Shown here: positions 2,366-63,893 of the stretch, piece after piece
How the letters are laid out: each line of letters begins with the position of its first letter
Position numbering within the stretch: position 1 is the stretch's first letter
Origin: Allokutzneria sp. A3M-2-11 16
Lineage (GTDB): Bacteria > Actinomycetota > Actinomycetes > Mycobacteriales > Pseudonocardiaceae
Direction of reading: 5' to 3'
DNA length: 64,000 nt
Assembly (NCBI RefSeq): GCF_024213555.1
Contig: NZ_JANAVO010000001.1
Location: 1,426,001 to 1,490,000 of the forward strand
Translations under genes and position numbers: made by a program
The notes under the pieces: generated by a model
Seen by the model: only the letters and a program-made list of their open reading frames with translations
Told to the model about the DNA's origin: nothing
The model's database searches: none

Positions 2366-2854
2366 CTACTGCTCGGCGTCGCCCACCAGGTGTTTGAAGG
2401 ACTTCAGGTTGGCGAGGGACTCGCCGCGGGAGACCCGCCAGTCCCACTCCCGCCGGATCGCGTCGGCGAACCCGATCTCCAGCAGGCTGTTGAAGTCGCC
2501 GTCGGCCGCTTCGAGCACCTGACCGAGCAGCCGGTCCAGCTCCTCGGTGGTCACCGCGTGCAGGCCGATCCGGCCGACGAGGTAGATGTCCCCCTCGGCG
2601 TCCAGGGTGTAGTGCACGCCGTAGAGCTTCGCGTTGCGGCGCAACAGGAAGCGGTAGACGTCCTCGTGCTTGCTGTCGGGCTGGCGGCAGACGAACGCCT
2701 CGATCAGCAGCGCCTCCCTGCCGATGATGAGCCAGCAGTTGGTCTGCAGCTTCTTGGTCCCGGGCAGGGTGACGAAGTACTTGCCCGTTTCCTTGCTCTG
2801 CCAAGCGAGTTCGCGTTCGTCCAAAGTGGACTCGATCAGCTCGTGCACGAGCAC
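2366..2854 (-). CDS. YbjN-domain protein
   Basis: A 162-aa protein of the YbjN family, a fold shared with type III secretion chaperones; the role in actinobacteria is unproven. Recognisable stretches are [20 protein letters not shown] and [20 protein letters not shown]. The chosen GTG start at 2854 sits 6 nt after a strong GGAGGT ribosome site. It overlaps the last 19 nt of mshA, so the two are translationally coupled. The same gene follows mshA in mycobacteria (Rv0487), which supports both the start and the assignment. Confidence 0.88.
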
Positions 2855-4083
2855 GCCCCCACCTCCGTTCGCGCGGCGTCGGCGTAGGCGGCCAACAACC
2901 CCTCCGTAGTGCGTTCCCAGGAGAAGCGTGCCGCATGCCGCACCGCCGCGGCGGACATCGACGCGCGCCGCACCGGATCGAGCGCGATCCCGGCGAGGGC
3001 GTCCGCCCAGCGCTCGGTGCGGTGGTCGGGCAGGAGCACGCCGGAGACGCCGTCCGCAACGGCGACGGGCAACCCGCCGACGGAGGTCGCCGCGACCGGG
3101 GTGCCGCACGCCTGTGCCTCCAGGGCGACGAGCCCGAAGGACTCGCTGTGGCTGGGCACCGCGACCACGTCAGCGGCCCGGTAGACCTGGGCGAGCGCGC
3201 CGCCGGAGCGCGGCGGCAGGAACCAGACCACGTCGGCGATGCCCAGCTCGACGGCGAGCCGCTGCAACAACTCCGGCTGGTCGAGCCCGGTGCCGGACGG
3301 CCCACCGACCACGAGCGTCACGATGCGTTCACGCAGGGACGGCGTGCGGGCCAACAGCTCAGCGGTAGCGCGCAGCAGCACGTCCGGCGCCTTCAGCGGC
3401 TGGATGCGGCCGACGAACGCCGGCACGACCGCGTCGGCGGGCAGGCCCAGTTCGGCACGGGCGGCGGCACGATCTCCGGGCGTGAAGCAGTCGAGGTCCA
3501 CCCCGGGCGGGATCGTCAGGACCTGCTCGGCGCGGGCTCGGTACAGGCCGCGCAGCTCCGCCGCCTCGATCTCGGTGTTGACCACGAGGCGGTCCGCCGC
3601 CGCGGCCAGCTGCTCCTCGCCGAGCACGCGCGCCAGGGGCTCGGGACGCTCTCCGGCGGCGAGCGCGGCGTTCTTGACCTTGGCCAGCGTGTGCGCGGTG
3701 TGCACGAGCGGCGCCCGCCACGCGCGCTTCGCCTGGATACCGGCCTGTCCGGCCAGCCAGTAGTGCGAGTGCACCGCGTCGAAGCCGCCCTGACCCGTCG
3801 CGACGACCCCGGAGGCGAACTCGGCGATGCGCGTCGGCAGGTCGTTCTTGTCCAGCTCCGGCGGCCCGGCGGGGACGTGCCGCACGGTCACCCCGGGCAC
3901 CATCTCCACGGCGGGCGGGAGGCCGGGGGCGTTGGCCCTGGTGAACACCTCGACCTCGACCCCGTTGGCGGCGAAGCGCCTGCTGGTCTGCGCGACGTAG
4001 ACGTTCATCCCGCCCGCGTCGCCGGTGCCCGGCTGCTCCAGGGGCGAGGTGTGCATGGCCAGGACGGCGATCCGCTTGATCAC
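2836..4083 (-). CDS. mshA: D-inositol-3-phosphate glycosyltransferase MshA
   Basis: First committed enzyme of mycothiol synthesis: it transfers GlcNAc from UDP-GlcNAc to 1L-myo-inositol 1-phosphate in the cytoplasm. The 415-aa GT4 protein opens with [20 protein letters not shown], has the MNVYVAQ segment, the acceptor-domain signature [14 protein letters not shown], and the C-terminal donor-domain motif [20 protein letters not shown] that carries the conserved Glu residues. The GTG start at 4083 gives the usual family N-terminus and follows an AGGGGGAGG ribosome site. It overlaps the upstream hydrolase stop by 4 nt. Mycothiol production fits the two isomerase-type paralogues near 10-11.5 kb. 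Confidence 0.96.
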
Positions 4084-4943
4084 GCTGCCTCCCCCTGGCA
4101 GCGCTCGACGAACTCGGCCAACTCGGTGGTGAAGCGCTCGGCGTGCTCCACGAACGGCAGGTGACCGCACTCCGGGTACCAGCTGGTCGCCGCGCCCGGG
4201 ATGAGATCGGCGGCGTAGCGGCCCGCGGCGGGGTCGACGATCCGGTCGTCGAGGCCGTGGACCACGAGCGCGGGCACGGTGAGCCCGGCCAGCACGTCGG
4301 CGTTGCCGATGTCCCGGCGGAACAGCCCGAGCCGGACGGCTGGCGGCGTGCTCAGCGCGGTTCCGAGCGCGAGCTGCGCGAACTCACCGGGCAGCGGCTG
4401 CGCGCTAGTGCCCTCGATGAACCCCTGCAACGCGGGCACCGCCACAGCGGGATCGTCGGACAGAGCCGCGGGCAACGCGGCGCGCATCGCGACGCCGGTG
4501 CGTCCGCCCTCACGACCGCGGCCGAGCTCGGTGATAGCGCCGACGAGCGCGATGCCCGACACCGCGTCCGAACCGTGTTCACGCAGGTAGTCGGCGATCA
4601 CCAGGCCGCCATAGGACCAGCCGACGAGCACCGCGGGCCGCCCCGCGTGCGCGAGCAGCGCCGCGACGTCACCCGCCCAGTTCTCGACCTGGTCGTACCC
4701 CTCGGCAGGCGCCGACGATCTGCCGTGTCCGCGCAGGTCAGCGGCGATGAGGCGGAACTCCGAGGTCAGTCGCTCATCGGTGAGCTGGGCGGCCCAGCAG
4801 CGCGCCGACTGCGCCCAGCCGTGCAGCAGGATCACCGGAGGAGCGTCCGGCGGTCCGGCCTCCGTCACGGCCAGCCTGGTCCCGCCGGCACCGCTCAGCT
4901 CCGAGAGTCGCACGAGTCCAGTGAACCCGGAGAGCCCCCGCAC
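4080..4943 (-). CDS. alpha/beta hydrolase
   Basis: An alpha/beta-hydrolase of up to 287 aa with the oxyanion motif [11 protein letters not shown], the nucleophile elbow GWSYGG, the acid loop [11 protein letters not shown] and the catalytic His in [10 protein letters not shown]. The fold and triad are clear but the substrate is not. Its stop overlaps the mshA start (GTGA), so it is cotranscribed with mshA and YbjN. The GTG at 4943 is used here; a GTG at 4913 is an alternative because neither has an obvious ribosome site. Confidence 0.88.
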
Positions 4944-4985
4944 CCGCGAGGGCCCGTTCCCGATCTCACATCAGCCCAGGGCCGT

Positions 4986-6261: not shown

Positions 6262-7263
6262 TCAACCGGTGCAAACGTCGACCACCAGCTCGGCGAGCAC
6301 GGGTTCGATGGGATTGGCGTAGCCGACCGTGCCGCCCTGGTTGCCCGCGAAGTAGAGGCCGACGACGCGGCCGGACTGGTCGACGACGGCGGCCCCGGAG
6401 TCGCCCCGGTCGCCGAAGCGCCCCGCGGCCACCTCGATCCGCACCTGGTCGCGCATCCGCCGCACCCCGAGGCCCGTGCCGTAGTCGAGCTGCACCGTGG
6501 CGTCCACCGACATCACGACGCCCGCGGTGAGCCCGGTGCTGCGCCCGCGCTTGCGGACCGGCGCGCCGATGCGGGCCGCGGCGTGCCCGGTGACCGCCCC
6601 GATGCCGACGATCCCCGGCTCGGTGGGCCGCCCAGGCCGGAACCTGATCAGCGCACCGTCCACTTTGGACGAAAGAGCGCCGCGGGCGAGGCTGCCGCAG
6701 ACGTCGTCCGGGCACCGCCCACCGTCCACTCTGGACGGATGGGTGAACTCGTCGCCGATGGCCCAGCCGTCGTCGACGCAGGCGACGTGGAAACTGGTCA
6801 GCCCCAGCACTTCCCCGGCGCCGAGGCGGTCGGTGACCAGCACGCCGAGCGTGCCGACCGTGACGTACTCGCCGTACTCCGGCGCCTGCGGCGGGCCGAG
6901 CCGGATCGGGCGGCACGGGCCGATGCCGATCCCCCCGAGCAGCGTGGAGTATGCCTCCGGCGGCGGTTCCGGCGCGGAGTCCGCGCGCATCAGAGCCGTG
7001 TGCACCAGCACGTCGTCGCGCACCACGTCCACCGGTACGCCGCCGACCTCGCGCGGCAAGAGTTGCCACGCTGGCAACTGATCGGCGGGACGCTTGTCCA
7101 GTACGGAAACGGAGATCGCCAACCGCCCGGTCGGCAGGCCCGCGACGCGCTGCTCGGCGATGTCCACACCGACGACCCCTGGCAGATCGAGGAAAGCGTC
7201 CTCGACCCGCCGTTTCACCGGTCGGATCTCGTGCCTGTGCAAGGCCCGGGTGTCGCCCGCCAT
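6262..7263 (-). CDS. trypsin-like serine protease-fold protein
   Basis: A 333-aa protein with a degenerate chymotrypsin fold: TSFHVAC carries the likely catalytic His, DGALIRF the Asp, and GDSGAAVVDQSGRVVGL the Ser. The C-terminus GYANPIEPVLAEL is typical of this group. No signal peptide is seen, so it is probably cytoplasmic, and the substrate is unknown. The ATG at 7263 follows GAGGAGGG; upstream in-frame codons encode an unlikely Cys-rich extension. The first 60 residues (HEIRPVKRRVEDAFLDLPGV) look like a small separate domain. Confidence 0.78.
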   Translation of the reverse strand: MAGDTRALHRHEIRPVKRRVEDAFLDLPGVVGVDIAEQRVAGLPTGRLAISVSVLDKRPADQLPAWQLLPREVGGVPVDVVRDDVLVHTALMRADSAPEPPPEAYSTLLGGIGIGPCRPIRLGPPQAPEYGEYVTVGTLGVLVTDRLGAGEVLGLTSFHVACVDDGWAIGDEFTHPSRVDGGRCPDDVCGSLARGALSSKVDGALIRFRPGRPTEPGIVGIGAVTGHAAARIGAPVRKRGRSTGLTAGVVMSVDATVQLDYGTGLGVRRMRDQVRIEVAAGRFGDRGDSGAAVVDQSGRVVGLYFAGNQGGTVGYANPIEPVLAELVVDVCTG

Positions 7264-7393
7264 GATGCCCTCCTCGTCAGAGCTGGCATCCGCACATCCC
7301 ATGAAACACGCGCAGTAAGACAATCGTCACACGACGTCACCCGAACGGCCCTCGCTCGCGTAGGCGTTTGCCATAGGCGCAAAGATCAACGGG

Positions 7394-9866: not shown

Positions 9867-9929
9867 CCCGTTTCGTACTCATAGCCGCGTATGGGAGCGC
9901 TCTTTTTCCCGCTATGAGTACGAAACGGG
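9867..9929. repeat. perfect 19-bp inverted repeat with 25-nt loop
   Basis: CCCGTTTCGTACTCATAGC at 9867-9885 is exactly mirrored by the complementary arm at 9911-9929. It lies between two plus-strand genes, downstream of the methyltransferase. It could be a terminator, but there is no T-run after the stem. The lower GC of the arms and the exact symmetry set it apart from ordinary GC-rich hairpins. No second copy was seen in the window. Confidence 0.8.
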
Positions 9930-10795: not shown

Positions 10796-11515
10796 ATGGA
10801 TCACGCGGGCCTCGTCGACCAGATCACCGAACACTCCGCCGCACTCCTCGACGCGGCCGTACAAGCCGGACCGGGCGCCGCGGTGCCGACGTGTCCAGAG
10901 TGGACAGTCGCTGACCTGGTCGCCCACGTGGCCAGGGCGCACGCCTGGGTCAGCGCGATCGTCGAGACCGGGAGCCAGGCGGAGTTCCCCGAGGTGCCGA
11001 CCGAGTGGCAGCCGCTGCTGGACCACTCGCGGGAGCGGACGGCCCTGCTCGCCCAGCGCCTGCGCGAGGCGGGACCGGACGCGCCGACCTGGACGTTCCT
11101 GCCGGATCTCCCGCAACAGGCGCACTTCTGGAGCCGCCGCATGGCGCACGACACCGCCATCCACCGCCTGGACGCGGAGCTGGCGCGGGGCGTCGAGTCC
11201 CGGCTGATCTTCGACCCGCGGTTCGCGGCCGACGGCATCGACGAGGCGCTCGGCTGGACACCGCTGGTGGCGCTGAGGAACACCGAGGCGTCCGGCAGCA
11301 TCCTGTTCCACGCCGCCGACGCGGGCCGGGCCTGGACGCTCGTGCTGCGCGCGGGCAAACCGGTCGAGGTGTTGCCGTTGCAGGACTCGGCGATCGACGC
11401 GGACGCGACCATGGCGGGCACGGCGGACGCGATCTACCGGGCGATCTGGAACCGGCCCAGCACGGCGATCCGGACCGGGGACCAGTCGCTGTTCGCCGCG
11501 CTCCCCGCGGTCTGA
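10796..11515 (+). CDS. maleylpyruvate isomerase-type, mycothiol-dependent DinB-fold protein (TIGR03083), copy 2
   Basis: A 239-aa paralogue of the preceding gene. It has the same motifs: PTCPEWTVADLVAHVARAHA, MAHDTAIHRLDAELARGVES, then RLIFDP-FAADGIDE and ILFHAADAGRAWT, nearly identical in both copies. Only 20 bp separate the two, yet a TAGTGT -10 box at 10784-10789 ends 6 nt before its ATG, so it probably also has its own leaderless transcript. A recent tandem duplication is the simplest origin. The substrate is unknown. Confidence 0.85.
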   Translation: MDHAGLVDQITEHSAALLDAAVQAGPGAAVPTCPEWTVADLVAHVARAHAWVSAIVETGSQAEFPEVPTEWQPLLDHSRERTALLAQRLREAGPDAPTWTFLPDLPQQAHFWSRRMAHDTAIHRLDAELARGVESRLIFDPRFAADGIDEALGWTPLVALRNTEASGSILFHAADAGRAWTLVLRAGKPVEVLPLQDSAIDADATMAGTADAIYRAIWNRPSTAIRTGDQSLFAALPAV

Positions 11516-12492: not shown

Positions 12493-12619
12493 GTTCCACA
12501 GTCTTCAAGTCCTACAAACCCCACCCCCAGCGGTCTTTAACCGCCCCCAACCTCCCGAGGGTTGGGTGCGGTTAAAGACCTCCGGGACGGGGGTGCGGTG
12601 TACTTGAAGACTGCGGAAC
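12493..12619. repeat. nested inverted repeat, family member A
   Basis: Three nested complementary arms between two convergent genes. Outer GTTCCACAGTCTTCAAGT (12493-12510) pairs with 12602-12619 with one mismatch. Middle GGTCTTTAACCGC (12532-12544) pairs exactly with 12568-12580. Inner CCCAACC (12546-12552) pairs with 12560-12566. Related elements occur at 24295-24551 and 57938-57990, sharing ACTTGAAGAC and the AAACCGCCCCCAACC type core. It may also serve as a bidirectional terminator. Confidence 0.8.
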
Positions 12620-12622: not shown

Positions 12623-13195
12623 CTAGAGCTTGGTGAAGGCGAGCAAGGGGAAGACGGGCTCGTACTCCTGGCCGTGGCCGACGAAGGAGCCCTCGCCGCA
12701 CACCGCGAGGCCGTACCGCGCGCCAAGAGCCTGCACGCGGGCACGCTCGTCACGCGCTCCGGGCATGGCGGGATTCCCTTCTGCCAAGCGGTGTGCGGCG
12801 CGTTTGTCCACAGTGCACACAAACACTCCGCCGGGCCGGAGCACGCGGGCGACCTCGCGCACCACGGCCTCCGAGTCGGGCATCAGGTGCAGCAGCCAAA
12901 TCGCCGTCACGGCGGCAACACTGCCCGATCTGGCGGGCAGGCGGCGCGCATCGGCCTGGGCCACGCGCCCCGGCAACCGCCGCACCGCATTGCCCAGCAT
13001 CGCAATAGAGAGATCAACACCAACCACTGGGCGATCCACCGCCGCCGCCACGATTCCCGTGCCCACAGCGACATCGAGCACCGGACCGGGCGGCAGCAGT
13101 CGTTCGATCGCGGCAGCCGCGGCACGGGCGCGCGGCTCGCCGCCGCGGGTCGAGTCGTAGCGCGCGGCCTCGACCTCGTAGTCCGGCATGGTCAC
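12623..13195 (-). CDS. class I SAM-dependent methyltransferase
   Basis: A 190-aa methyltransferase of the UbiE/Methyltransf_11 type with motif I VLDVAVGTGIVAAAV, motif II VVGVDLS, and the post-motif segment VREVARVLRPGGVFVCTVD. The substrate is unknown. The GTG at 13195 overlaps the YbaK stop (GTGA); an ATG two codons later is an alternative. It is the last gene of a tightly overlapping minus operon (15334 down to 12623). Confidence 0.85.
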   Translation of the reverse strand: MTMPDYEVEAARYDSTRGGEPRARAAAAAIERLLPPGPVLDVAVGTGIVAAAVDRPVVGVDLSIAMLGNAVRRLPGRVAQADARRLPARSGSVAAVTAIWLLHLMPDSEAVVREVARVLRPGGVFVCTVDKRAAHRLAEGNPAMPGARDERARVQALGARYGLAVCGEGSFVGHGQEYEPVFPLLAFTKL

Positions 13196-16126: not shown

Positions 16127-16567
16127 CTAGTTCTGGCGAGTGTCGGTCGACGGGGACGCTTCGCCTTCTTCGTCCACAGTGGACAGTTCGGCGCGGTTCT
16201 CCCGCCGGAAGGATTGGTAGACGTCGAGCAGCACCTGCTTCTGCCGCTCGGTGAGTTCGGTGTCGGCGAGCACGGCGTCGACGACGACACCGCTTTCCCG
16301 CTCCTCGAGGATTCCGGCCTGCACGTAGAGCGCCTCGGCCGAGATCCGCAGCCCCTTGGCGATCTGCTGCAGGATCTCCGCGCTCGGCTTGCGCAGTCCC
16401 CGCTCGATCTGGCTCAGGTAGGGGTTGGACACCCCGGCCTGCTTGGCCAGCTGCCGCAGGGAGATCTGCGCGCTGGAGCGCTGCGTCCGGATGTACTCAC
16501 CGATGTCGCGGACCGTGCCGACAACGGCTTCGTTGACGTCGCTGACGGCTTTTTCGACCCGGCCCAT
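16127..16567 (-). CDS. XRE-family HTH regulator upstream of hbhA
   Basis: A 146-aa regulator with one XRE helix-turn-helix, ISLRQLAKQAGVSNPYLSQI then RGLRKPSAEILQQIAKGL, and a C-terminal tail (ELTERQKQVLLDVYQSFRRE). It matches mycobacterial Rv0474 in place and type. The ATG at 16567 follows GAGGAGG. The promoter contains three TGCNNGCA palindromes over the -35 box, so autoregulation together with hbhA is likely. Confidence 0.9.
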   Translation of the reverse strand: MGRVEKAVSDVNEAVVGTVRDIGEYIRTQRSSAQISLRQLAKQAGVSNPYLSQIERGLRKPSAEILQQIAKGLRISAEALYVQAGILEERESGVVVDAVLADTELTERQKQVLLDVYQSFRRENRAELSTVDEEGEASPSTDTRQN

Positions 16568-17429: not shown

Positions 17430-18614
17430 ATGGGCGAGTTGAGCAAGCGCAAGGCACAACGGCTGCGCAACCGGATGGCCGCGACGCTGGCCGGCCAGGG
17501 CGCATTGGCCGATCCGCACTGGCGCGCGGCCTTCGAACAGGTGCCGAGGCACATGTTCCTGCCCCGGTTCTTCCGCCCGCACCCGGACGGCGGCTGGACC
17601 GCGATCGCCGACTCCGACCACGAATGGCTGGAGCTGGTCTACTCGGACTGGGTGTGGGTGACCCAGCTCGACTGCGACGACCGCAGGTGGGCGCTGGCCA
17701 GGGGGCAGGGCCGCACGCCGGGCACCGCGACCTCCTCCTCCAGCATGCCGACGATCATGGCGATCATGTTGGAGGCGCTGGAGATCCGCGGCGGGGAGAA
17801 GGTGCTGGAGGTCGGCACCGGCACCGGCTACAACGCGGCCCTGCTGTGCCACCGGCTCGGCCAGCGCAATGTGTCCACAGTGGACGTCGACCCGCTGGTG
17901 CTGCGCCGGGCCGCGGCCAACCTGGAACGCGCGGGTTACCGGCCGACCCTGGCCACCGCGGACGGCGCGTCCGGCTATCCCCCGACCGCGCCGTACGACC
18001 GGGTGCTCGCCACCTGCTCGGTGTCCCGAATCCCGTTGCCCTGGCTGGCCCAGACCGTGGTCGGCGGCCTGATCGTCACCACCCTGCACCGGCCGCTCGG
18101 GGCGGGACTCGTGCGCATCACGGCGGGCCGCAACAGCACCGGCGAGGGCACGGTGCTGCCCGCGGACGGCCGGTTCATGCCGCTGCGCGCCCACCGCGGG
18201 CCCGACATCTCCGAGCTGCTGCGCGCTGTCGGCGACTGCTCCGGTCCCAGGTCCTCGACCGAGCTCGGGATGAACGTGGTGACCAGCCCGAGCAGCGCGT
18301 TCGAGTTCTTCGCGGGCCTGGTGCTGCCGGGCGTGCGGCCCGCCACCGGGATGACCGTTGGCGACCTGCGGCAGAACTGGCTGGTGCACCCGGACGGTTC
18401 GTGGGTCCGGCACACCACCGAGCGCGGGCGGCACCACGTCGAGCAGGGCGGCCCGCGACGGCTGTGGGACGAGACCGAGAGCGCCTACGAGCGCTGGCGC
18501 GAGCTCGGCGAGCCACGGCGCGAACAATTCCGACTCACCATCGATCCGGGCGGCCAATGGATCTGGCTCGACGAGCCTTCTGGAGGACACCACTGGCAAC
18601 TCGAATCCGCGTAA
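17430..18614 (+). CDS. PCMT-like protein methyltransferase
   Basis: A 394-aa protein with an N-terminal basic helix, FEQVPRHMFLPRFF and a SAM-binding VLEVGTGTGYNAALLCHRLG motif, as in protein-L-isoaspartate O-methyltransferase. It is about twice the length of a plain PCMT: a C-terminal half (MTVGDLRQNWLVHPDGSWVR, then GGQWIWLDEPSGGHHW) is added. Similar long enzymes accompany graspetide or FxLD peptide maturation, but no precursor peptide or ATP-grasp gene is next to it. The ATG at 17430 has a short leader after the TACCGT at 17407-17412; an ATG at 17415 is possible. Confidence 0.8.
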   Translation: MGELSKRKAQRLRNRMAATLAGQGALADPHWRAAFEQVPRHMFLPRFFRPHPDGGWTAIADSDHEWLELVYSDWVWVTQLDCDDRRWALARGQGRTPGTATSSSSMPTIMAIMLEALEIRGGEKVLEVGTGTGYNAALLCHRLGQRNVSTVDVDPLVLRRAAANLERAGYRPTLATADGASGYPPTAPYDRVLATCSVSRIPLPWLAQTVVGGLIVTTLHRPLGAGLVRITAGRNSTGEGTVLPADGRFMPLRAHRGPDISELLRAVGDCSGPRSSTELGMNVVTSPSSAFEFFAGLVLPGVRPATGMTVGDLRQNWLVHPDGSWVRHTTERGRHHVEQGGPRRLWDETESAYERWRELGEPRREQFRLTIDPGGQWIWLDEPSGGHHWQLESA

Positions 18615-21238: not shown

Positions 21239-21916
21239 TCACGCGACCAGCTCCACGTCCTGCGTGCGCCCGTCCCGCACGACGACCTCGCGGTCGGCGT
21301 ACGCGGCAACCCGGGGCTCGTGCGTGACGAGGACGACCGCGGCGCCGGTCTGCCGGGCCGCGTCGAAGAGCAGGCGGAGCACGCGCTCGCCGTTCAGCGA
21401 GTCCAGCGCCCCGGTGGGCTCGTCGGCGAAGAGCACCTTCGGCTCGGTGGCCAGCGCCCGCGCGACCGCGACCCGCTGCCCCTGACCGCCCGAGGCCTCG
21501 CCCGGCCGCTTCGAGGCGATGTCGCCGACCTCCAGCAGGTCCATCCACACCTTGGCGGAGCGCTCCGCCTCGGCCCGCCGCATCCCGCCGAGGCGCAACG
21601 GCAACGCGACGTTCTCCAGGAAGGTCAGCTCGGGAACGAGTTGCCCGAATTGAAAGACAAAGCCGAAGTCGTTGCGGCGCAACGCACTCCGCTCGCTGTC
21701 CGGCATCGCCGACAGCTCGGCGTCCCGGTACGTCACCGAGCCCGCGTCGGGTTTGAGGATGCCCGCGAGGCAGTGCAGCAACGTGGACTTCCCGGAACCC
21801 GACGGCCCCATCACCGCGACGAGTTCCCCGGCCCGCACCGACATGCTCGCGTCGACCAGCGCGTTCGTCGGCCCGAAAGCCTTCGCGAGGCCCTTCGCCA
21901 CCAGCAGTTCCGTCAT
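21239..21916 (-). CDS. ABC transporter ATP-binding protein (LolD/MacB type)
   Basis: A 225-aa ATPase with Walker A GPSGSGKST, Q-loop FVFQFGQLVPELTF, signature ASGGQGQRVAVARAL, and Walker B VLFADEPTGALDS, all intact. It powers the FtsX permease downstream. Its ATG overlaps the PadR stop by 4 nt, so regulator, ATPase and permease form one operon. Confidence 0.95.
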   Translation of the reverse strand: MTELLVAKGLAKAFGPTNALVDASMSVRAGELVAVMGPSGSGKSTLLHCLAGILKPDAGSVTYRDAELSAMPDSERSALRRNDFGFVFQFGQLVPELTFLENVALPLRLGGMRRAEAERSAKVWMDLLEVGDIASKRPGEASGGQGQRVAVARALATEPKVLFADEPTGALDSLNGERVLRLLFDAARQTGAAVVLVTHEPRVAAYADREVVVRDGRTQDVELVA

Positions 21917-22434
21917 GTGCTCACCACCCGCAGCTCGTCGAGGCGCGCCGCGGTCAGCTCAAGCCAGCGCAGGTCGGCTTCGAGGTGGAACAGCGCGTGG
22001 TCGCACACCAGCTGGTCGGTCAGGTCGCCATCGGCCTTGCGGCGGGTCAGCGCGCGCATCATCCGCAGGTGCTCCGCCCGCTGCGAGTCCAGGACGCCCT
22101 GGGCGCTGCGGCCGGACATCAGCGCGAGCACCACCTTGGCGTACAGGGTGTTCTGCAGGTAGGGCTCGGGCTTCTCCGGCGTGCCGAGCCACCCGTCGAT
22201 GTCGGTGACCCCCGCCTCGGTGATCGCGTAGCGCTTGCGCTCCGGTCCACCGCCCGCCTCGGTGCCGTCGACCTGCACGAGCCCGTTGCGCAGCAGGCGG
22301 GACAGCGTCGAGTAGACCTGGCCGTAGTGCAGCGGCCGGTCGTGCCCGAACCGTTCGTCGTAGGCACGCTTGAGGTCGTAGCCGTGCCGTGGACCATTCT
22401 CCAACAAGCCCAGCAGTGCGTGTCCTATTGACAT
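21913..22434 (-). CDS. PadR family transcriptional regulator
   Basis: A 173-aa PadR repressor: winged-helix N-terminus IGHALLGLLENGPRHGYDLK and YGQVYSTLSRLLRNGLVQ, then a C-terminal helical dimerisation part (DHALFHLEADLRWLELTAAR). It leads an ABC-exporter operon, the usual setting for PadR regulators that sense the exported drug. The ATG at 22434 lies 7 nt after a TACAGT -10 box (22442-22447), so it is probably leaderless. Confidence 0.92.
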   Translation of the reverse strand: MSIGHALLGLLENGPRHGYDLKRAYDERFGHDRPLHYGQVYSTLSRLLRNGLVQVDGTEAGGGPERKRYAITEAGVTDIDGWLGTPEKPEPYLQNTLYAKVVLALMSGRSAQGVLDSQRAEHLRMMRALTRRKADGDLTDQLVCDHALFHLEADLRWLELTAARLDELRVVST

Positions 22435-29824: not shown

Positions 29825-31270
29825 TCAAGCGATTCCGTGCCCCGGGGGCGCCGGGTCGGCGAGCCCGTGCCAGGCGCTGCCGATGCGCCGGACGGCCTCG
29901 CCGAGCTGGTCGTCCGGCAGCGTGTACGGCAGGCGCATCCACCGCTCAAGTCCGCCGTGCGCGGCGAACCGGGAGCCGGGCGCGACCTGCACACCGCGCC
30001 TTCCAACGGCCATCGCGAGCTGCGTGCTCAACGGCTTTCCCAAGTCGCACCACAGGTTCAGCCCACCCGATGGCCGCCGGACTGTCCACTCTGGACAGAT
30101 CTCGGCGAGCAGGTCGATCAGCATGTCCCTGCGGCGGGCGAACTCGCGGCGGCGCGGCGCCAGAATGTCGTCGCCCTCAGCCAGGAGCGCGGCCAGCACC
30201 AGCTGTTCGAACACCGGCGAGCCCAGGTCCATCGACGCCCGCGCCTCGCCGAGGCGGTGCACCAGCTCGGTGGGCGCGCGCAGCCACCCCATCCGCAGCC
30301 CGCCCCAGTACGCCTTGCTCGCCGATCCGGTCGCGATCACCCAGTCCTCGGCGAAGGCGGACAGCGGCGGCGGCCCGTCCAGCGGATCGCCTTCCAGGTC
30401 CAGTTCGACCAGGGTCTCGTCCACCAGCGTCAGGGTCCTGGCACGGCGCAGCGCGTGCGCGAGCCGCTCGCGGTCCGGCGCTGACATCCGCAGCCCGGTG
30501 GGGTTCTGGAAGTCCACCACGAAGTAGGCCAGCCGGGGTGCTGCCTGGCGCAGCGTCGCCTCCACGCTGTCCAGGTCCCAGCCGTCCGGGTCCAGCGGCA
30601 CCGCGACGGGCAGCGCGTGGGCGGCCCGGATGCCGTCGACGGCGGTCGGATAGGTCGGGTTGTCCACCAGCACCCGCTGCCCCGGCCCGACGTGCAGCCG
30701 CAGCGCCAGCGTCAGCGCGTGCTGCGAGCCGTTGGTGATCATGACCTGGTCCGGCGTGGTCGGCAGCCCGCGCTCGGTGTAGCGGCGCGCGATCAGCTCG
30801 CGCGGCTCAGGCAGGCCGAAGGACTGGTAGCCGTGGCTGTTCAGCAGCTCCGGCAGGCGCAGCCGCGCCCGGTCGACCGCGGCGGCCAGTTCCGGCGGCG
30901 CGAACGGCGAGGCGTGCGCCATGTCGACGATCTCCGATGGCGGGTGCAGCGACCAGCCGGTCCGGTCCGGTTCCTTGCCCGGGACCGAGATCCACGACCC
31001 GGCACCACGCCTGCTTGCCACCATTCCGGCTTCGCGCAGCCCGTCCATCGCCGCCGTGACCATGGTGCGGCTGACGCCCAGCGCCTCGGCGAGCTCGCGT
31101 TCGGCGGGCAACCGGGTCCCCACCGGCAACCGCCCGTCCAGGAACAGCACCCGCAGCGCGGCCGCGAGGTCCACCGCGGCACCGCGGCCGTCCGGACGCC
31201 GCCAGGAGCCGAGGAACGCGGCCAGGCGCGGGCCGGAGATCCGGTTGCCCGCCGGCAGAGTGGAGGTCAT
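29825..31270 (-). CDS. MocR/PdxR-type GntR regulator with aminotransferase domain
   Basis: A 481-aa protein with a GntR winged helix (LPAERELAEALGVSRTMVTA, about residues 55-90) fused to a fold-type I aminotransferase-like domain with PLP lysine in ATGSASKAYWGGLRMGW and the VDFQNPTGLRMS segment. MocR proteins sense PLP or amino acids and regulate the divergent neighbour, here a YczE-type membrane protein, a known pairing. The ATG at 31270 excludes a run-in through the operator. Confidence 0.95.
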   Translation of the reverse strand: MTSTLPAGNRISGPRLAAFLGSWRRPDGRGAAVDLAAALRVLFLDGRLPVGTRLPAERELAEALGVSRTMVTAAMDGLREAGMVASRRGAGSWISVPGKEPDRTGWSLHPPSEIVDMAHASPFAPPELAAAVDRARLRLPELLNSHGYQSFGLPEPRELIARRYTERGLPTTPDQVMITNGSQHALTLALRLHVGPGQRVLVDNPTYPTAVDGIRAAHALPVAVPLDPDGWDLDSVEATLRQAAPRLAYFVVDFQNPTGLRMSAPDRERLAHALRRARTLTLVDETLVELDLEGDPLDGPPPLSAFAEDWVIATGSASKAYWGGLRMGWLRAPTELVHRLGEARASMDLGSPVFEQLVLAALLAEGDDILAPRRREFARRRDMLIDLLAEICPEWTVRRPSGGLNLWCDLGKPLSTQLAMAVGRRGVQVAPGSRFAAHGGLERWMRLPYTLPDDQLGEAVRRIGSAWHGLADPAPPGHGIA

Positions 31271-46110: not shown

Positions 46111-46446
46111 CGCCAATGTCGCGTTTGGGGCGTTGGATTCCCTGAACGAGTCGTTCGGGGCGTTGGGTTCCCTCAACGGGTCGTTCAGGGCGTTCGTGGC
46201 GCGCGCGGAGGCGGGGTCGGGGTGGCCGTGAATGTCGCGTTTGGTGCGTTGGGAGGCCCTGAATGAGTCATTGAGGGCGCTCAAGTACCTCAATGACTCA
46301 TTCAGGGCATACGTGGCGGTGGGGATGAGAGGAACTCCGCCCAGGCTGGGGTTTTTGGGGTCGTTGTGCGGCCGCACGTGGGAAAGTGGGTGTTTAGGGG
46401 GTCCCCGACTGGAGGGGGACCCTTGTTCGCGTGTGGAGGGATGGCG
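46111..46446. repeat. patch of palindromic CCCTGAAYGAGTC-type repeats
   Basis: Four palindromic units: CCCTGAACGAGTCGTTCGGG (from 46140), CCCTCAACGGGTCGTTCAGG (from 46170), CCCTGAATGAGTCATTGAGG (from 46258) and CCTCAATGACTCATTCAGGG (from 46288). AATGTCGCGTTTGG occurs twice, at 46115 and 46231, one before each pair, so the patch looks like a duplicated two-unit module. No ORF is seen; the region lies between the response regulator and the CHAT locus. Elements of this look are dispersed in Amycolatopsis-type genomes, from memory. Confidence 0.75.
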
Positions 46447-46860: not shown

Positions 46861-49527
46861 ATGCTCGATCGGCTCAGCTTCGACATCGCCGTCCGCGGAC
46901 CGAAACCGCTCAAGGCGGCGGACCGCGAGGTCAACGCGATCCTGACGGTCTCGGCGCACCCGCTGCCGAGGACCGCGGAGGTGATCGTCTTCGATCGGTC
47001 GAACCGGGCCGAGTTCGGCGCGGTGAAGGCGCACGTGCTGAGCGCGATCGACGCGGTCGCGGACGGGTTGGAGTTCGCGGTGGTCGCGGGCTCCACGACG
47101 GAGCCGGACGGTGCGCGCCTCGTGGTGGCGGACCAGCGGACGCGGGCGGCGGCGAAGGCGGCGGTCGGCGAACTGGGACCGGAGGGCGACGCGGAGTTCG
47201 CGTCCTGGTTGGGGCGGGCCGCCGTGCTGTTGGCGGAGCACGAGGGGCCGCACCCGCGCGCGATGCTGATCACGGCGGGGACCAGGCAGGAGTTCGCCGC
47301 CGCGGCGGCACCGTACGTGGATCGCTTCGTGTGCAACTACGTCGGCCCCGACAGCGCCACCGAAGGCGTCGAGGACGGCATCCACCTGAACCTGTCACTG
47401 CCGCCGAACACGCGCTTGCGCTTCCTCCGGCAGATCTCCCCTCAGCAGGCCGATCTCGCCGACGATGCGGGCCCGCTCGGGTACAACACCGGCACGTGGG
47501 GCGCGGAGTCCCGCGAGTACCACCTGTGCGTCGAGGTCCCGCCGCCGATGGTGCGGGAGTTCCTGGCTGCGCGGGTGACGCTCGTGCGGCTGGGTGAGGG
47601 CGGGGAGCCGATCCAGCTCGCGCACGCCAATGTCTTGGCGCGGTTGGAGATTCCACTGCCGCCCCTCTTCGCGCCGCCTGCTCAGCAACAGCAGCCCCCG
47701 CCTAAGCACAAGGCTCCCGCCCGCCGGGTCGACGGCAGGGGCGGTGGAGCCACCGGCGGCTTCGCCCGGCCGAGGCCCCCGAACGTCGTGAACACCGGGT
47801 TCGCCGACGCGGCCGCTCCGCTGCTGCCGTTGCCGCAGAACTACGCGCTGCGGCCAGGCTGGGGTTACTGGTTCTGGCTCGATGTCGGGCCGCTGGTTGG
47901 AGCATCCATCGAGGCCGCGCCGATGTCGTTGCCGCAGTCGCTGCCCGCCGACGCGCAGTTGACCGTTGTGCTGTACGGGTTTCCCGGGGAGTTCGACCTC
48001 GATCCGCGGGCGGCCACGGGTGTGCTGCAGATGAACCGGGACGGCTCCCCACGCGTGCTGCGCCAACCGTCCATTGTGGAGCATACGTCTCGACTGTTCT
48101 TCCCCGTCCGCACTCCGCACGAGCAGACACCCCTTCGCCTGCGGTGCAACATCTACTGGCAGCAGGAGCTGATCCAGTCGCGGCTGATCACCGCGACGCC
48201 GGGAGAGCTTAAGTCCACTGTGGACTTCCGGATAGCCGACCCGCACGATGTGCTGCGGTGGCCGTCCCCGTACCAGTACAGCGCCAGCCTTCTGCTCAAC
48301 GACGACGGCAGGGGCACGCACGCGTTGCGCGTGCTCGCCAAGGAAGGCGCGGACGTGCTGCGCGCCGAGGCGTCCATCACCAGCCACCAGCTCACCAGCG
48401 CGATCAGGATGGCCAGGGGCGCGCTGAGCCGGGTCGCGTGGGGCAGCGAAGAGCCCTGGCGCGAGGAGTTCGACTACCGCTACGGTTCGTCGCCGACCGT
48501 CGAGCAGGTCACCAACGACCTGATCACGTTGGCGGTCAACGGTTATCGGCTCCACCACGTGTTGGTGCGGGCACTCGGCCGCTCGGTGAACGAGAGCGCG
48601 TACAGCATGGCCGACCGGGTCGGTGCCGCGCTCGGCGCACCGGGCTTCGTCCAGATCGCGTTGAAGGAAGGCGCTCAGCACGTCATCCCCGCCGCGATGG
48701 TCTACGATCTGCCACTGGACAGCAACGCGCCGGACCTGGTGCTGTGCCAGGACTTCCTGACCTGGGCGAGCCGGAACGAGATCCCGCTGAGCCCGTGCCT
48801 GCGGCGCCAGTGCGGGCAGGCGCTGAGCCCGAGCCCGACCGTCGTGTGCCCCGGCGGCTTCTGGGGATTCCGGCACGCGCTCGGGCTGCCCGTGTCCCTG
48901 GGGGCGGCGCCCGCGGTGCCCCCGTTGCTCCCCCACGACGGCGGTGTCCGGCTCGTCGGCGGGGTCTACCAGGACTTCGCTTCGACGGCCGCGCACCGCG
49001 ACGCACTGCGGAACCTGTTGCCGTGGAAGGACTACCGGCTCGGCGAGGATCGGGAAAGCACGCTCGCGGGGCTCCAGGGCGACCCGCAGATCGTCTACTT
49101 CTACTGCCACGGCGGCGTGAGCGGCGAAGTGCCGTTCCTCCAGGTGGGCAAGCGAGGCGGGCCCGCCATCACCCCGGACAACCTGCACGATCGGCGGGTC
49201 CGGTGGTCCTCGAGCCGACCACTGGTGGTCCTGAACGGTTGCCGGACAACGGATCTGGAGCCGGAACGGGCGATCGACTTCGTGAGCTTCTTCGTCGAGG
49301 AAGCCCTCGCGTGCGGGGTGATCGGCACCGAGGTCACGGTCTTCGAGCAGATGGCCCACCAGTTCGCCGAGGAGGTCCTGCGCGGCTTCCTGGTGCACGG
49401 CGAGCCGATCGGCGCAGCGGTGACGAGGGCTCGGGTGGCCCTGCTGGCGAACGGGAACCCGTTGGGGCTGGCCTACATCCCGTTCGTCTCACCGACGATC
49501 AGGATGGCGCCTCTGCCAGCGCCTTGA
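46861..49527 (+). CDS. large CHAT (caspase-like) protease with degenerate vWA-like N-terminus
   Basis: An 888-aa protein. Residues about 1-265 look like a vWA-type fold (VIVFDRSNRAEFGAVKAHVL with a poor metal site). A Pro/Gln-rich linker follows near 275-300, then a beta-rich middle (GYWFWLDVGPLVGAS to LVRALG). The C-terminal CHAT domain from about 690 has the catalytic His750 in YFYCHGG and Cys794 in LNGCRT, then RARVALLANGNPLGLAYIPF. Both catalytic residues are intact. CHAT proteases act in defence, cell death or signal-triggered cleavage. The partner is the membrane protein upstream. The gene end overlaps the opposing SRPBCC gene by 29 nt. Confidence 0.88.
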   Translation: MLDRLSFDIAVRGPKPLKAADREVNAILTVSAHPLPRTAEVIVFDRSNRAEFGAVKAHVLSAIDAVADGLEFAVVAGSTTEPDGARLVVADQRTRAAAKAAVGELGPEGDAEFASWLGRAAVLLAEHEGPHPRAMLITAGTRQEFAAAAAPYVDRFVCNYVGPDSATEGVEDGIHLNLSLPPNTRLRFLRQISPQQADLADDAGPLGYNTGTWGAESREYHLCVEVPPPMVREFLAARVTLVRLGEGGEPIQLAHANVLARLEIPLPPLFAPPAQQQQPPPKHKAPARRVDGRGGGATGGFARPRPPNVVNTGFADAAAPLLPLPQNYALRPGWGYWFWLDVGPLVGASIEAAPMSLPQSLPADAQLTVVLYGFPGEFDLDPRAATGVLQMNRDGSPRVLRQPSIVEHTSRLFFPVRTPHEQTPLRLRCNIYWQQELIQSRLITATPGELKSTVDFRIADPHDVLRWPSPYQYSASLLLNDDGRGTHALRVLAKEGADVLRAEASITSHQLTSAIRMARGALSRVAWGSEEPWREEFDYRYGSSPTVEQVTNDLITLAVNGYRLHHVLVRALGRSVNESAYSMADRVGAALGAPGFVQIALKEGAQHVIPAAMVYDLPLDSNAPDLVLCQDFLTWASRNEIPLSPCLRRQCGQALSPSPTVVCPGGFWGFRHALGLPVSLGAAPAVPPLLPHDGGVRLVGGVYQDFASTAAHRDALRNLLPWKDYRLGEDRESTLAGLQGDPQIVYFYCHGGVSGEVPFLQVGKRGGPAITPDNLHDRRVRWSSSRPLVVLNGCRTTDLEPERAIDFVSFFVEEALACGVIGTEVTVFEQMAHQFAEEVLRGFLVHGEPIGAAVTRARVALLANGNPLGLAYIPFVSPTIRMAPLPAP

Positions 49528-58747: not shown

Positions 58748-58758
58748 AGGAGGGTGCG

Positions 58759-59181: not shown

Positions 59182-59906
59182 TGCGGGTCCTCGTCACGGG
59201 CGCCTCCGGGGGCATCGGACGCGCCATCGCCAGGGCGTTCGCGGCCGACGGGGCCAAGGTCGCTGTGCACTACTCGACCCGTCGCGAAGAAGCACAAAAG
59301 ACCTTGGAAGACGGCGTGATCGTCTGCGGAGACATCGCCGATCCCGTGCAGGCCGAGCGAATTGTCGACGAAGCAGCCGCTGGACTCGGCGGACTGGACG
59401 TGCTGGTCAACAATGCAGCGGCCAACACCGCGCATCCGATCACCACTTCGTCCTATGAGGACTGGACGACGGCGTGGCGACGCGTGGTGGACGTGAACTT
59501 GTTGGGAGCAGCCAACCTCAGCTACTGCGCCGCGCAGATCATGATCGGCCAGAAGAGCGGGCGCATCATCAACGTGGGTTCGCGCGGGGCTTTTCGCGGT
59601 GAGCCGGACCATCCCGCGTACGGAGCGAGCAAGGCGGGGCTGCACGCGCTCGGCCAGTCGCTCGCGGTTGCCCTTGCGCCGCATGGGATCTCGGTGACCT
59701 CCGTGGCGCCGGGGTTCGTCGCGACCGACCGCGTCGCGGACCGGCTCGCCGGGGAGTCCGGCGAGCAGATCCGCGCTCAGAGCCCCTTCGGCCGCGTCGC
59801 CGAGCCGGAGGAGATCGCCGCGGCCGTGTTGTGGCTGGCCTCGCCGGAGGCGTTGTGGGCGTCCGGAACCGTCGTGGACCTCAACGGCGCTTCGCACCTG
59901 CGTTGA
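59181..59906 (+). CDS. SDR family oxidoreductase
   Basis: A 241-aa FabG-like dehydrogenase: VLVTGASGGIGRAIARAFAA, VLVNNAAANTAH, RIINVGSRGAFRGEPDHPAY with the catalytic Ser and Tyr-x-x-x-Lys (YGASK), then SVAPGFVATDRV. The Arg in YSTRREE suggests NADP(H). Operon partner of the VOC protein; both may convert a compound sensed by the GntR regulator. Its end overlaps the opposing LacI gene by 26 nt. Confidence 0.93.
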   Translation: MRVLVTGASGGIGRAIARAFAADGAKVAVHYSTRREEAQKTLEDGVIVCGDIADPVQAERIVDEAAAGLGGLDVLVNNAAANTAHPITTSSYEDWTTAWRRVVDVNLLGAANLSYCAAQIMIGQKSGRIINVGSRGAFRGEPDHPAYGASKAGLHALGQSLAVALAPHGISVTSVAPGFVATDRVADRLAGESGEQIRAQSPFGRVAEPEEIAAAVLWLASPEALWASGTVVDLNGASHLR

Positions 59907-61026: not shown

Positions 61027-61058
61027 GTCACTGTGGAGAAAGGGAAGGGAGGGGATAC

Positions 61059-62255
61059 GTGATCAACGACAGGATCGCCGTCTTCGTGGTGTTCGCGCTC
61101 AACGGGGCGGCCTTCGGATCATGGGCGCCGCGGATGCCCGCGCTGGCCGAGAGCCTGCGCGCGGAGCCGGGCACGCTCGGGCTCGCGCTGCTCGGGGCGA
61201 GCGTCGGCATGGTGCTCGCCGCCTCGTTCTGCGGTGGCGTGGTGGAGCGCTTCGGCGCGCGGGTCGGCATTGCCGGTCCACTGCTGGTCGGAGCCGCGGC
61301 GCTGCCGGTGATCGGCCTCGTCGGCTCGATCGCGGCGCTGGCCGTGGTGCTGCTGGTGCTCGGCGCGGCGGTCGGCGTCGTGGACGTGGCGATGAACGTG
61401 GCGGGCGTCGCGGTGGAACGCGCGGGCGGCAAGGCGATCATGCCGGTGCTGCACGCGGGGTTCAGCGTCGGCGCGATGCTCGGAGCGGGCGGCGCGGCGT
61501 TCGCGGCCAGGCAGGGCTGGTCGCTCGCGACGCACCTGAGCGTCGTCGCGGTGATCACCGTGCTCGTGCTCTTCGCCGTGATCAGGTCGGTGCCCGCGAC
61601 CGCGGCCACCACACCGGAAAAGCAGGCCGTGAACGGGAAAGTCGCCGGACGGCCGGTGCTGTGGCTGCTGGCCAGCATCGCGCTGTGCTCGGCGATCGCC
61701 GAAGGCGGCAGCGCGGACTGGTCGGCGCTGTTGCTGGTCACCGAGCACGGGATGAGCCAGGGTGCCGCAGCGCTCGGATACGCGGCCTTCTCGGCCGCCA
61801 TGGCGGTCACGCGGTTCGCCGGGGCGTGGACGCAGAACCGCTTCGGCGCGGCGAGGACCCTTGCGGGCGGGTCGGTTCTGGCCTCGGCCGGTCTGCTGCT
61901 GACGGCGTTGCTGCCGGGCGGCGGCTACCTGGGCCTCGTGCTCGCCGGAGCAGGTCTGGCGGCGGCGTTCCCGATCGCGCTCGGCCTGGCCGGGTCGGCG
62001 GGCAGGCGGCCGGACGGCAGCGGCGGGGAGCGCGAGATCGCGTTCGTCTCCGCATTGGCCTACAGCGGTTTCCTGTTCGGACCGCCGATGATCGGCGGGA
62101 TCGCGCAGCTGACCTCGCTGTCGATGTCCTTCGTCGCGGTCGGGCTGACCACCGCGCTGATCGCACCGGCCGCGGTGGCCGCGACCCGTTCCCTCGCCCG
62201 GGAACGAGCCGCGGCCGAGGAGGTCAGGCCCGCGGTTCCCAGCGGAACCACCTGA
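61059..62255 (+). CDS. MFS transporter
   Basis: A 398-aa major facilitator with about 12 helices. FVVFALNGAAFGSWAPRMPA at the start and the loop FGARVG (motif A-like) fit small-molecule exporters of the YbjJ type. The middle RSVPATAATTPEKQAVNGKV loop separates the halves, and the second half has EGGSADWSALLLVTEHGMSQ. The GTG at 61059 follows GGGAGG. Expression is probably under the divergent LacI repressor. The 3' end overlaps the ABC permease by 32 nt. Confidence 0.9.
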   Translation: MINDRIAVFVVFALNGAAFGSWAPRMPALAESLRAEPGTLGLALLGASVGMVLAASFCGGVVERFGARVGIAGPLLVGAAALPVIGLVGSIAALAVVLLVLGAAVGVVDVAMNVAGVAVERAGGKAIMPVLHAGFSVGAMLGAGGAAFAARQGWSLATHLSVVAVITVLVLFAVIRSVPATAATTPEKQAVNGKVAGRPVLWLLASIALCSAIAEGGSADWSALLLVTEHGMSQGAAALGYAAFSAAMAVTRFAGAWTQNRFGAARTLAGGSVLASAGLLLTALLPGGGYLGLVLAGAGLAAAFPIALGLAGSAGRRPDGSGGEREIAFVSALAYSGFLFGPPMIGGIAQLTSLSMSFVAVGLTTALIAPAAVAATRSLARERAAAEEVRPAVPSGTT

Positions 62256-62979
62256 GCGCGGCGTAGACCGCGACCGCCGCCCACACCGCCGAGGCCCCGA
62301 CCGCGGGCCCGGCGGCCACCAGCTGGTCGGCGAAGCCGACCGCCCTGCCGTCCCACGTGGTGCCGAGCCAGCCGGTGCGCAGCAGCTCCGCGATCCCGCC
62401 GCCGGGCAGGGCGACGGAGATCCAGTGCACCGTCTGGCTGTCCGCCAGGAACGAGCTGGCCGCCGCCCCCGCGGCGACCATGAAGATCGGCAGCGTGGTG
62501 ATCTGCGCGTTCTCCGGGGTCTTGGTGAACACGGTGGACGCCATGCCCGCCGCGGCGAACAGAGCCAGCCCCACGAGCACGCCCACGGCGAACAGCAGCG
62601 GGTTCTCCGGGATCGGCGCGCCCGCCGCCATCGCGATGACCGTGAGCACGAGCGACTGGGCGAAACCCAACGCCAGCACCGGTCCCACCGTGCCGGCCAG
62701 GATGCCGAGGTCGGTCAGCTCACCGCTGCGCAGGCGCTTGAGGAACAGGTCCTGCCTGCGCGCGGTGAGCGTGGTGGTGATGGTGATGTAGACGGTCATC
62801 AACAGCACCAACATGATCTGCAGCGTGACCACGACACCCCAGCCACCTCCGCCGAACGAGGTGCCCTGGTAGGCCATGTAACCGCCGAGCCCGAGCGGGA
62901 ACGCGATGGCCATGACCATGACCGACCTGTTGCGCCACAACAACTTCAGCTCGGTACTCCCGAGTGCGAGCACCCTCAT
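62224..62979 (-). CDS. ABC-2 type transporter permease
   Basis: A 251-aa permease of the ABC-2 type: LWRNRSVMVMAIAFPLGLGG, GVVVTLQIMLVLLMTVYITI, RRQDLFLKRLRSGELTDLGI, and further helices to VGASAVWAAVAVYAALRWF. Its ATG overlaps the ATPase stop by 4 nt. Drug or lipid export is the family role. Confidence 0.92.
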   Translation of the reverse strand: MRVLALGSTELKLLWRNRSVMVMAIAFPLGLGGYMAYQGTSFGGGGWGVVVTLQIMLVLLMTVYITITTTLTARRQDLFLKRLRSGELTDLGILAGTVGPVLALGFAQSLVLTVIAMAAGAPIPENPLLFAVGVLVGLALFAAAGMASTVFTKTPENAQITTLPIFMVAAGAAASSFLADSQTVHWISVALPGGGIAELLRTGWLGTTWDGRAVGFADQLVAAGPAVGASAVWAAVAVYAALRWFRWEPRA

Positions 62980-63893
62980 GCCACGGCTCCCATCCGCTCG
63001 GCGACCTGGTGGAAAACGTCTTCGAGCGAGGCGTGGTGCGCGCGCAGGCGCCCCAGGTCCACCCCGCGTTGCCCGGCCCAGCCGAGCAGCACGCTCAGGT
63101 CCTGTTGCAGGCTGGCGGAGTTCAGCTCGATCCGGCCCGCGCGGTTGACGAAGTTCGACATCCCGGGCAGCACCGGCAGTTCGGTCACGGAGACCCCGTG
63201 CGGCAGGTCGAAGGCGATCCGCGCCGGATGGCTCTCCAGCACCTCCGCCAGCGTCCCGTGCACGCTGATCCGCCCTTCGTCCATAATGGACAGACGAGTG
63301 GCCAGCGTCTCGGCCTCCTCGAGGTAGTGCGTGGTGAGCAGCACCGTGGTGCCCTCGACGAGCAGTCCGCGCACAACCTCCCACGTGCGCTTGCGCGACT
63401 CCGGGTCCAGGCCGGTGGTCGGCTCGTCCAGGAACAGCACCTCCGGCTTGTTGAGCACGGCCAGCGCCAGGTCGAGCCGCCTGCGCTCGCCACCGGAGAG
63501 CTGCTTCACCGCCACCTGGGCGCGGTGACCGAGGTCGAGCAGGTCGAGCACGTCCAGCCGCCCCCGGCGGGCAGTGGTGATCTTCCCCCACAGTTGGAGC
63601 GTCTCGGCAACGGCGAGGTCACCGGCGAAACCGCTCTCCTGCAACATGATCCCCGTGCGCGGGCGCAGTCGGGCGCGGTCGGCGACGGGGTCGAGGCCGA
63701 GCACCCGCACGCTGCCGCCGGACGCGCGCCGGTGCCCCTCAAGGGTTTCCACCGCCGTCGTCTTGCCTGCGCCGTTCGTGCCGAGCAGGGCGTACAGCTC
63801 GCCCGGACGGACTTGCAGGTCGATCCCCCGCACCGCCTCGAACGAGCCGTAGGCGCAGCGAAGCCCGACGGCGTCGATCGCGTATTCGTTCAC
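62976..63893 (-). CDS. ABC transporter ATP-binding protein (DrrA/CcmA-like)
   Basis: A 305-aa ATPase: Walker A LGTNGAGKTTAVETL, signature LSGGERRRLDLALAVLNKPE, Walker B VLFLDEPTTGLDPES, switch TTHYLEEAE. The extra C-terminal domain (VTELPVLPGMSNFVNRAGRI) is typical of daunorubicin-resistance type ATPases. The GTG at 63893 is used; upstream in-frame ATGs would read through the promoter. Confidence 0.94.
   Translation of the reverse strand: MNEYAIDAVGLRCAYGSFEAVRGIDLQVRPGELYALLGTNGAGKTTAVETLEGHRRASGGSVRVLGLDPVADRARLRPRTGIMLQESGFAGDLAVAETLQLWGKITTARRGRLDVLDLLDLGHRAQVAVKQLSGGERRRLDLALAVLNKPEVLFLDEPTTGLDPESRKRTWEVVRGLLVEGTTVLLTTHYLEEAETLATRLSIMDEGRISVHGTLAEVLESHPARIAFDLPHGVSVTELPVLPGMSNFVNRAGRIELNSASLQQDLSVLLGWAGQRGVDLGRLRAHHASLEDVFHQVAERMGAVA

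Follow-up and report, generated by a model that had tools for sequence, protein, structure and literature searches.

We analyzed a window of 64,000 nucleotides from Allokutzneria sp. A3M-2-11 16, of the family Pseudonocardiaceae (G000:C11:1426001-1490000; the host genome, G000, has 8.81 Mb in 43 contigs), in which the interrupted palindrome GTCCA-N3-TGGAC occurs nine times. Our preferred reading, to which we give a probability of about 0.62, is that the form with A or T at the centre, GTCCA-NWN-TGGAC (hereafter W-site), is a two-fold symmetric site under selection, mostly intragenic, and that it would be read by a homodimeric winged-helix protein of the PadR family encoded next to prfB. Comparison of sequences suggests that the copies are kept by selection on the DNA itself, mostly within genes. 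From the same kind of data we infer that the PadR protein of the prfB-ftsE-ftsX-smpB neighborhood is probably the reader.

A preliminary description of the window had listed nine copies between positions 2819 and 63279, and all of them were found exactly there. They are, as it held, far above chance: dinucleotide shuffles gave a mean of 0.08 copies and a maximum of 1, and none of 100 reached at least nine. Within the window only spacer 3 is present, since spacers 0-2 and 4-15 between GTCCA and TGGAC gave no match. All nine sites are intragenic according to our own codon-based gene predictor, but they are not in nine different genes, because 6658 and 6724 share one, leaving eight. More than one frame is used, as had been described, but seven of the nine lie in the single frame G-TCC-ANN-NTG-GAC (hyphens mark codon boundaries), with 10893 and 30084 in another. 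Near copies had been reported at 12805, 48071 and 55170; each is a version with one mismatch, and the starts are off by no more than about 4 bases. All nine sites have A or T as the centre base, which is a wobble base in seven of them, a feature that the description had passed over.

The excess extends to the whole genome. G000 contains 743 copies of GTCCA-N3-TGGAC, against 7 of a reversed-pattern control, and for the W-centred form the counts are 699 and 1. The motif is therefore a palindrome far above chance genome-wide, as HIP1 is, and this excess together with the codon nulls below bears out the suggestion of a highly iterated palindrome. When all 5-mer interrupted palindromes with spacers 0-12 were ranked, GTCCA-N3-TGGAC led the list for a sister species (460 kb). 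For G000 (400 kb) it was surpassed only by TCCAC-N1-GTGGA, which is the same site. Over 864 kb of contig C11, a sample that includes the window, the looser GTCC-N5-GGAC was matched 205 times, and each of the remaining spacers between 0 and 13 gave 10-56 matches. About 92% of the 36 sites in the first 464 kb have A or T at the centre, in a genome of 70% GC, and C and G predominate on either side of it, giving the ideal site GTCCACWGTGGAC. Compared with 264 perfect W-sites (1.73 Mb, both strands counted), single arm changes at the innermost base numbered 53, 58 and 13, while each change elsewhere was seen 0-25 times. Except at that base, changes compatible with G-U pairing were not favored. This gradient of tolerance resembles that expected of a dimeric protein site rather than of an RNA stem.

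Most W-sites lie inside genes (120 of 132 sampled in G000 and the related genome G034, where some orthologous sites are shared, so that not all are independent). The sampled stretches thus have many sites spread over the chromosome and mostly outside promoters, as would be looked for with a nucleoid protein. Outside predicted genes there are 12 W-sites in about 224 kb of the two genomes, so the excess holds there as well. The place within genes is near uniform overall (Kolmogorov-Smirnov, KS, 0.15), with no preference for gene starts; for G000 alone the KS value is 0.055, the first quarter being poorer in sites. No obvious clustering at origin or terminus was seen on inspection of 41 G000 and 35 G034 sequences, a comparison of low power. 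Locally, 16 GTCC-N5-GGAC matches fall in one 20-kb stretch with very long genes (L053, G000:C11:3300001-3320000), roughly threefold the average of the sample. In G008, which has the most W-sites of the genomes counted (934), two consensus sites lie together outside predicted genes (L152, 1501 and 1528; G008:C1:489411-489450). A site pair in guaA occupies the same codons in three genera; these loci were retrieved by the pair pattern itself, so that this conservation is partly by construction and not proof. In one open library the exact motif strings that were tried were found only in three papers, on subjects that are unrelated by title, and none of the titles listed concerned the motif.

As the description had claimed, codon usage does not account for the repeats. 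Two kinds of codon-shuffle null were run 30 times each on the 864 kb sample, with 836 predicted genes. On average the nulls held 9.8 and 11.3 intragenic sites (at most 17 and 16), where 72 are observed, and 0.5 and 1.1 W-centred ones (at most 2 and 4), where 64 are observed. A count no higher than codon-shuffled expectation had been named beforehand as the outcome that would speak against the repeat; in this sample the count was higher. The frame G-TCC-ANN-NTG-GAC holds 61 of the 72 strict sites, and its centre is a wobble base. There 54 of the 61 have A or T, despite the rarity of threonine codons ACA (422) and ACT (389) next to ACC (9257) and ACG (4373) in the same sample. Comparison of homologous regions from three Allokutzneria genomes (G000, G034 and G068) gave a second line of evidence. 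The G000 region has 26 sites, of which 3 were unaligned to G034 and 7 to G068. The arms were intact in 18 of 23 sites in G034 and 15 of 19 in G068, against 49% and 39% of in-frame control windows (binomial p 0.004 and 0.0005). Where the centre is a wobble base with A or T, 14 of 17 sites retained it in G034 and 11 of 15 in G068, while the retained fraction of other A/T wobbles in the genes of the region was 0.495 and 0.439. In the reverse direction it was retained in 15 of 15 and 10 of 10; some sites are common to both directions, which are therefore not independent. Over the four comparisons, 0/72, 4/60, 2/76 and 1/48 of the G/C wobbles within the arms had changed, versus 11-17% in controls.

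These data bear on two explanations in which the intragenic copies have no role as DNA sites. One is that codon or peptide usage (S-T-V-D), or a hairpin in the mRNA, lies behind the repeats. An S-x-V/L/M-D frame is indeed common to 102 of 120 intragenic W-sites, but the codon-shuffle nulls contradict this explanation, A or T is preferred at the wobble base, and sites occur in two other frames and outside genes. For the hairpin, G-U-compatible changes would have to be favored, and at the outer four arm positions they are not. We give this explanation almost no credence. The other is that an ordinary regulator has an operator whose copies spread by drift, most of those inside genes being neutral. 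It would fit the sites that some lineages carry upstream of padR. However, the silent bases of intragenic sites are conserved above controls, which argues against neutral copies, since these would decay, and we consider drift very improbable.

Within the samples searched, the motif is abundant only in Pseudonocardiaceae. The string GTCCANWNTGGAC has 699 copies in G000, and a phylum sample of 295 other genomes, none of them Pseudonocardiaceae, gave 0-5 copies per genome. Across 200 genomes of the family, in 46 genera, W-site counts range from 0 to 934 and those of controls from 0 to 4. The three Allokutzneria genomes have 542-699, the single genome of genus g9 has 934 and five genomes of genus g17 have 443-759. 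Density in many Pseudonocardiaceae is several to about 140 copies per Mb. Genera g42 and g5 are nearly devoid of sites, with 0-2 in 10 of 10 genomes of the former and 0-4 in 10 of 10 of the latter.

The candidate reader came from the sparse sites outside the family. Seven W-site places in such genomes were inspected before the PadR gene of G397 was picked. Lone W-sites in G127, G193, G200 and G247 gave no lead. In G340 a pair of W-sites lies between polysaccharide genes, and no PadR gene is found on the 3.8-kb contig piece. G397, which belongs to another family of the same order, carries just one pair of W-sites in its 4 Mb, spaced by 33 bp; the pair is found upstream of a PadR gene (domains PF03551 and PF10400), no more than about 65 bp away. 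Of the 21 PadR loci surveyed in G000, the best full-length match to the G397 protein (36% over 149 residues) is a PadR family protein of 166 aa, the candidate reader (G000:C11:895874-896371, minus strand). Its PF03551 domain, at G000:C11:896129-896341, scores 31.2 bits against a cut-off of 27. Both proteins have the recognition helix SVTRSQVYREL, and TRSQVY is found in none of the other 20 G000 PadR loci. The helix is constant in 32 aligned proteins, G397 included, save for the first residue in two. The window itself has a PadR gene (21916-22434, minus strand; match at G000:C11:1448204-1448416), whose helix is unlike that of the candidate reader. A PadR-wide operator was also considered and rejected, this helix being encoded in just one of the 21 loci.

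Full-length orthologs of the 166-aa protein are present in 115 of 120 family genomes, with 59-100% identity, and padR adjoins prfB, ftsE, ftsX and smpB in all 14 family loci read. By coordinates, padR and prfB are also neighbors in three other families (G323, G498 and G505). The genomes without an ortholog among the 120 are four of g42 and G081. The G081 gene is probably in an assembly gap, because prfB is not matched at E 1e-90 either and the assembly is fragmented (690 contigs, 89% complete). In g42 the ortholog is absent from 10 of 10 genomes, the best matches being paralogs of 25-34% identity. All 8 g42 genomes that were checked for prfB have it; in G042, the one whose locus was read, it is preceded by an unrelated gene and followed by ftsE, and padR is gone. 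Sites near the promoter were seen in two further lineages. In G515 (family f81), whose sites were counted at the padR locus only, GTCCACTGTGGAC lies 5-50 bp upstream of the ortholog, depending on the choice among three in-frame GTG starts, and the helix is NVTRSQVYREL. In 4 of the 5 loci of genus g16, padR has GTCCATTGTGGAC upstream at a distance of 116 bp; the fifth has a one-base variant, and all five proteins have the helix SVTRSQVYREL. Separately, the padR coding sequence in two other families holds GTCCATTCTGGAC or its one-base variant GTCCGTTCTGGAC at a similar place (L248 at 243, L249 at 186). The suggestion of a protein-binding site is supported by the genome-wide excess, the conservation of silent positions and the presence of a candidate reader.

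Several observations weigh against this PadR protein as the reader. Genus g5 keeps it in 10 of 10 genomes yet has 0-4 W-sites; the helix is unchanged in three of four aligned g5 proteins and differs at the first residue in the fourth, and the eight strongest palindromes in a 400-kb sample of the g5 genome G050 include none of the GTCC type. G323 (family f3) likewise has a 48% ortholog beside prfB, with helix SMTRSQVYREL, yet no sites. The G397 gene is not beside prfB and may be a paralog. The loss in g42 is a single clade-level event. Upstream sequence of 300 bp or more was available for 64 padR loci, a few of them the same gene twice. Only four of these, all from g16, have a strict W-site within 300 bp upstream, and the Allokutzneria padR has none within that distance. 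Site density correlates with PadR identity to G000 (Spearman rho 0.61), and more highly with genome size (rho 0.69), over 45 genomes taken one per genus, with g42 left out for want of an ortholog and phylogeny uncorrected; padR was the sole gene family set against density. Autoregulation in Allokutzneria was rejected as well, the 21 G000 PadR loci holding one strict site, 1.7 kb from the PadR start (L132). The site could thus be real and selected but read by another protein, with the link to PadR arising by chance from the loss in a single clade and a handful of promoter sites. Genus g5, with PadR and almost no sites, and the lack of a strict site at any PadR gene of G000 speak for such a reader. 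Against it stand the two consensus sites at the PadR promoter of G397, which has no other W-site, and the match of the G397 helix to just one of 21 G000 loci, as well as the padR-upstream sites in two further lineages and the fact that g42 lacks the gene and the sites alike. We regard another reader as unlikely, though it deserves serious attention.

Two other readings concern known roles of repeated DNA words. The DnaA box is a single 9-mer, TTGTCCACA, common to actinobacteria with DnaA. The relation to it proposed in the preliminary description was not supported, as DnaA was found in 13 of 14 control genomes while the motif, in the samples covered, is restricted to a single family. The motif needs both arms at spacer 3, and such a fixed spacing of a two-fold palindrome would not be required by single 9-mer boxes. 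Nor is there an obvious concentration of sites near dnaA (C11:1915625). We know of no methyltransferase target of the form GTCCA-NWN-TGGAC. DnaA and methylation are both less supported readings, and the data do not need methylation. A DNA methyltransferase or a repair bias, rather than a binding protein, might still make and keep the palindrome, as proposed for HIP1 (GCGATCGC) of cyanobacteria, for which the available part of one article describes alternate palindromes with matching methyltransferases and proposes methylation-dependent mismatch repair (Elhai 2015, PMC4390886). The outward picture is similar, with a much-repeated palindrome gained and lost between lineages; in the same part of that source, HIP1 abundance also varies by lineage and some genomes have alternates or nearly none. 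However, HIP1 is there an uninterrupted 8-bp sequence linked to methyltransferases, whereas the present site has 13 bp and a 3-bp gap, arms that are fixed except for tolerance at the innermost base, a W centre and a candidate helix-turn-helix reader. The terms actinobac, Streptomyces and GTCC do not occur in the text of PMC4390886. An origin of the HIP1 type seems improbable to us.

In the reading that we prefer, a homodimeric PadR protein would occupy several hundred palindromes, most of them intragenic, and would act as a chromosome-wide, nucleoid-associated binder rather than as a classical promoter regulator. This role, more weakly inferred than the binding, is drawn from the position of the W-sites, 120 of 132 being intragenic with no preference for gene starts. 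The conserved silent bases inside genes suggest that promoter control alone is insufficient, and a nucleoid-associated role would account for them. A comparable arrangement is MatP/matS of enterobacteria, in which a ribbon-helix-helix dimer organizes the chromosome through about two dozen sites, only in the terminus. The likeness is in the 13-bp palindrome of the 5-N3-5 type with a dedicated chromosome-organizing dimer; the differences are the hundreds of sites found here, with no obvious clustering in the sampled stretches, and the PadR winged helix. The closest solved relative by sequence is PadR of PDB 5x11 (E 2.5e-9), which we take to be a promoter repressor with a phenolic-acid function; its helix differs (SAKHSQIYPEL). 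NapM of mycobacteria (PDB 8jxk) is, in the available excerpt of PMC13340245, a PadR-family homodimer regarded as nucleoid-associated, with 573 sites from chromatin immunoprecipitation sequencing (ChIP-seq) cited for one genome, although in the same excerpt its authors themselves question that classification. The likeness, a PadR-family homodimer with many sites across a genome, concerns the kind of function and not membership: the candidate reader has only a remote similarity to NapM (phmmer E 0.19 against 8jxk), and that excerpt gives no 13-bp palindrome maintained inside genes for NapM.

The nine window sites differ in their genes and in their state in the two relatives. GTCCAAAGTGGAC (2819..2831) is inside a YbjN family gene (2369-2854, minus strand) and is intact in neither, with arm changes in both G034 and G068. 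GTCCACTTTGGAC (6658..6670) and GTCCACTCTGGAC (6724..6736) lie in one gene (6265-7302, minus strand) with a weak trypsin-like match below cut-off; the former is intact in G034 and keeps its arms with a centre C in G068, and the latter keeps its arms in both, with a centre C in G034 and identity in G068. GTCCAGAGTGGAC (10893..10905), in an MDMPI_N family gene (10796-11515, plus strand) and in the other frame, has a single arm change in G034 and is unaligned in G068. GTCCACAGTGGAC occurs twice: at 16172..16184, in an HTH_3 regulator gene (16130-16567, minus strand), where G034 is identical and an arm is changed in G068, and at 17873..17885, in a PCMT methyltransferase family gene (17430-18614, plus strand), identical in both. 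Also identical in both are a second GTCCACTCTGGAC (30084..30096), in the other frame of a GntR/aminotransferase regulator gene (29828-31270, minus strand), and GTCCACTGTGGAC (48213..48225), in a gene with a CHAT-domain match just below cut-off (46861-49527, plus strand). GTCCATAATGGAC (63279..63291), in an ABC transporter ATPase gene (62979-63893, minus strand), has intact arms in both relatives, but the centre is G (plus strand) in both. A looser site of the form GTCCW-NWN-WGGAC, GTCCTATGAGGAC (59450..59462), differs at the tolerant innermost arm base and is a possible weak site.

Other repeats were seen in the window, where Rfam matched three tRNAs only. GTACTTGAAGAC occurs on the plus strand at 12600 and 57974. 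It has 54 copies in 1.03 Mb of G000, 52 of them outside predicted genes, occurs in 31 of 50 G000 sequences, counting the window, and is flanked by GGGGTT-like and AACCCC-like sequences, as in a hairpin loop. The CCCGTTTCGTACTCATAGC-type repeat is found at 9869 (plus) and 9927 (minus), with the copies facing each other, and its core CGTTTCGTACTC has 45 copies in 1.03 Mb, 44 outside predicted genes. AATGA(C/G)TCATT repeats are at 46262 and 46292; in 1.03 Mb there are 68 strand matches, that is 34 places counted on both strands, all outside predicted genes and in 11 of 50 sequences.

A wider picture, which we hold tentatively and at less than even odds, is that the coding DNA of one bacterial family serves as an array of hundreds of selected anchor sites for one PadR protein, an ancestral self-regulating repressor that would have turned into a sequence-specific chromosome organizer, with gene and sites lost together in one genus. 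To our knowledge, highly repeated palindromes such as HIP1 lack an agreed protein reader, and here a specific and testable pair of protein and site can be named for one. The genus with neither the gene nor the sites offers a natural experiment, and the conservation of silent positions indicates selection on the intragenic sites. If the picture is true, actinomycetes would have a family-specific layer of chromosome organization, and codon choice would be constrained by it in hundreds of genes.

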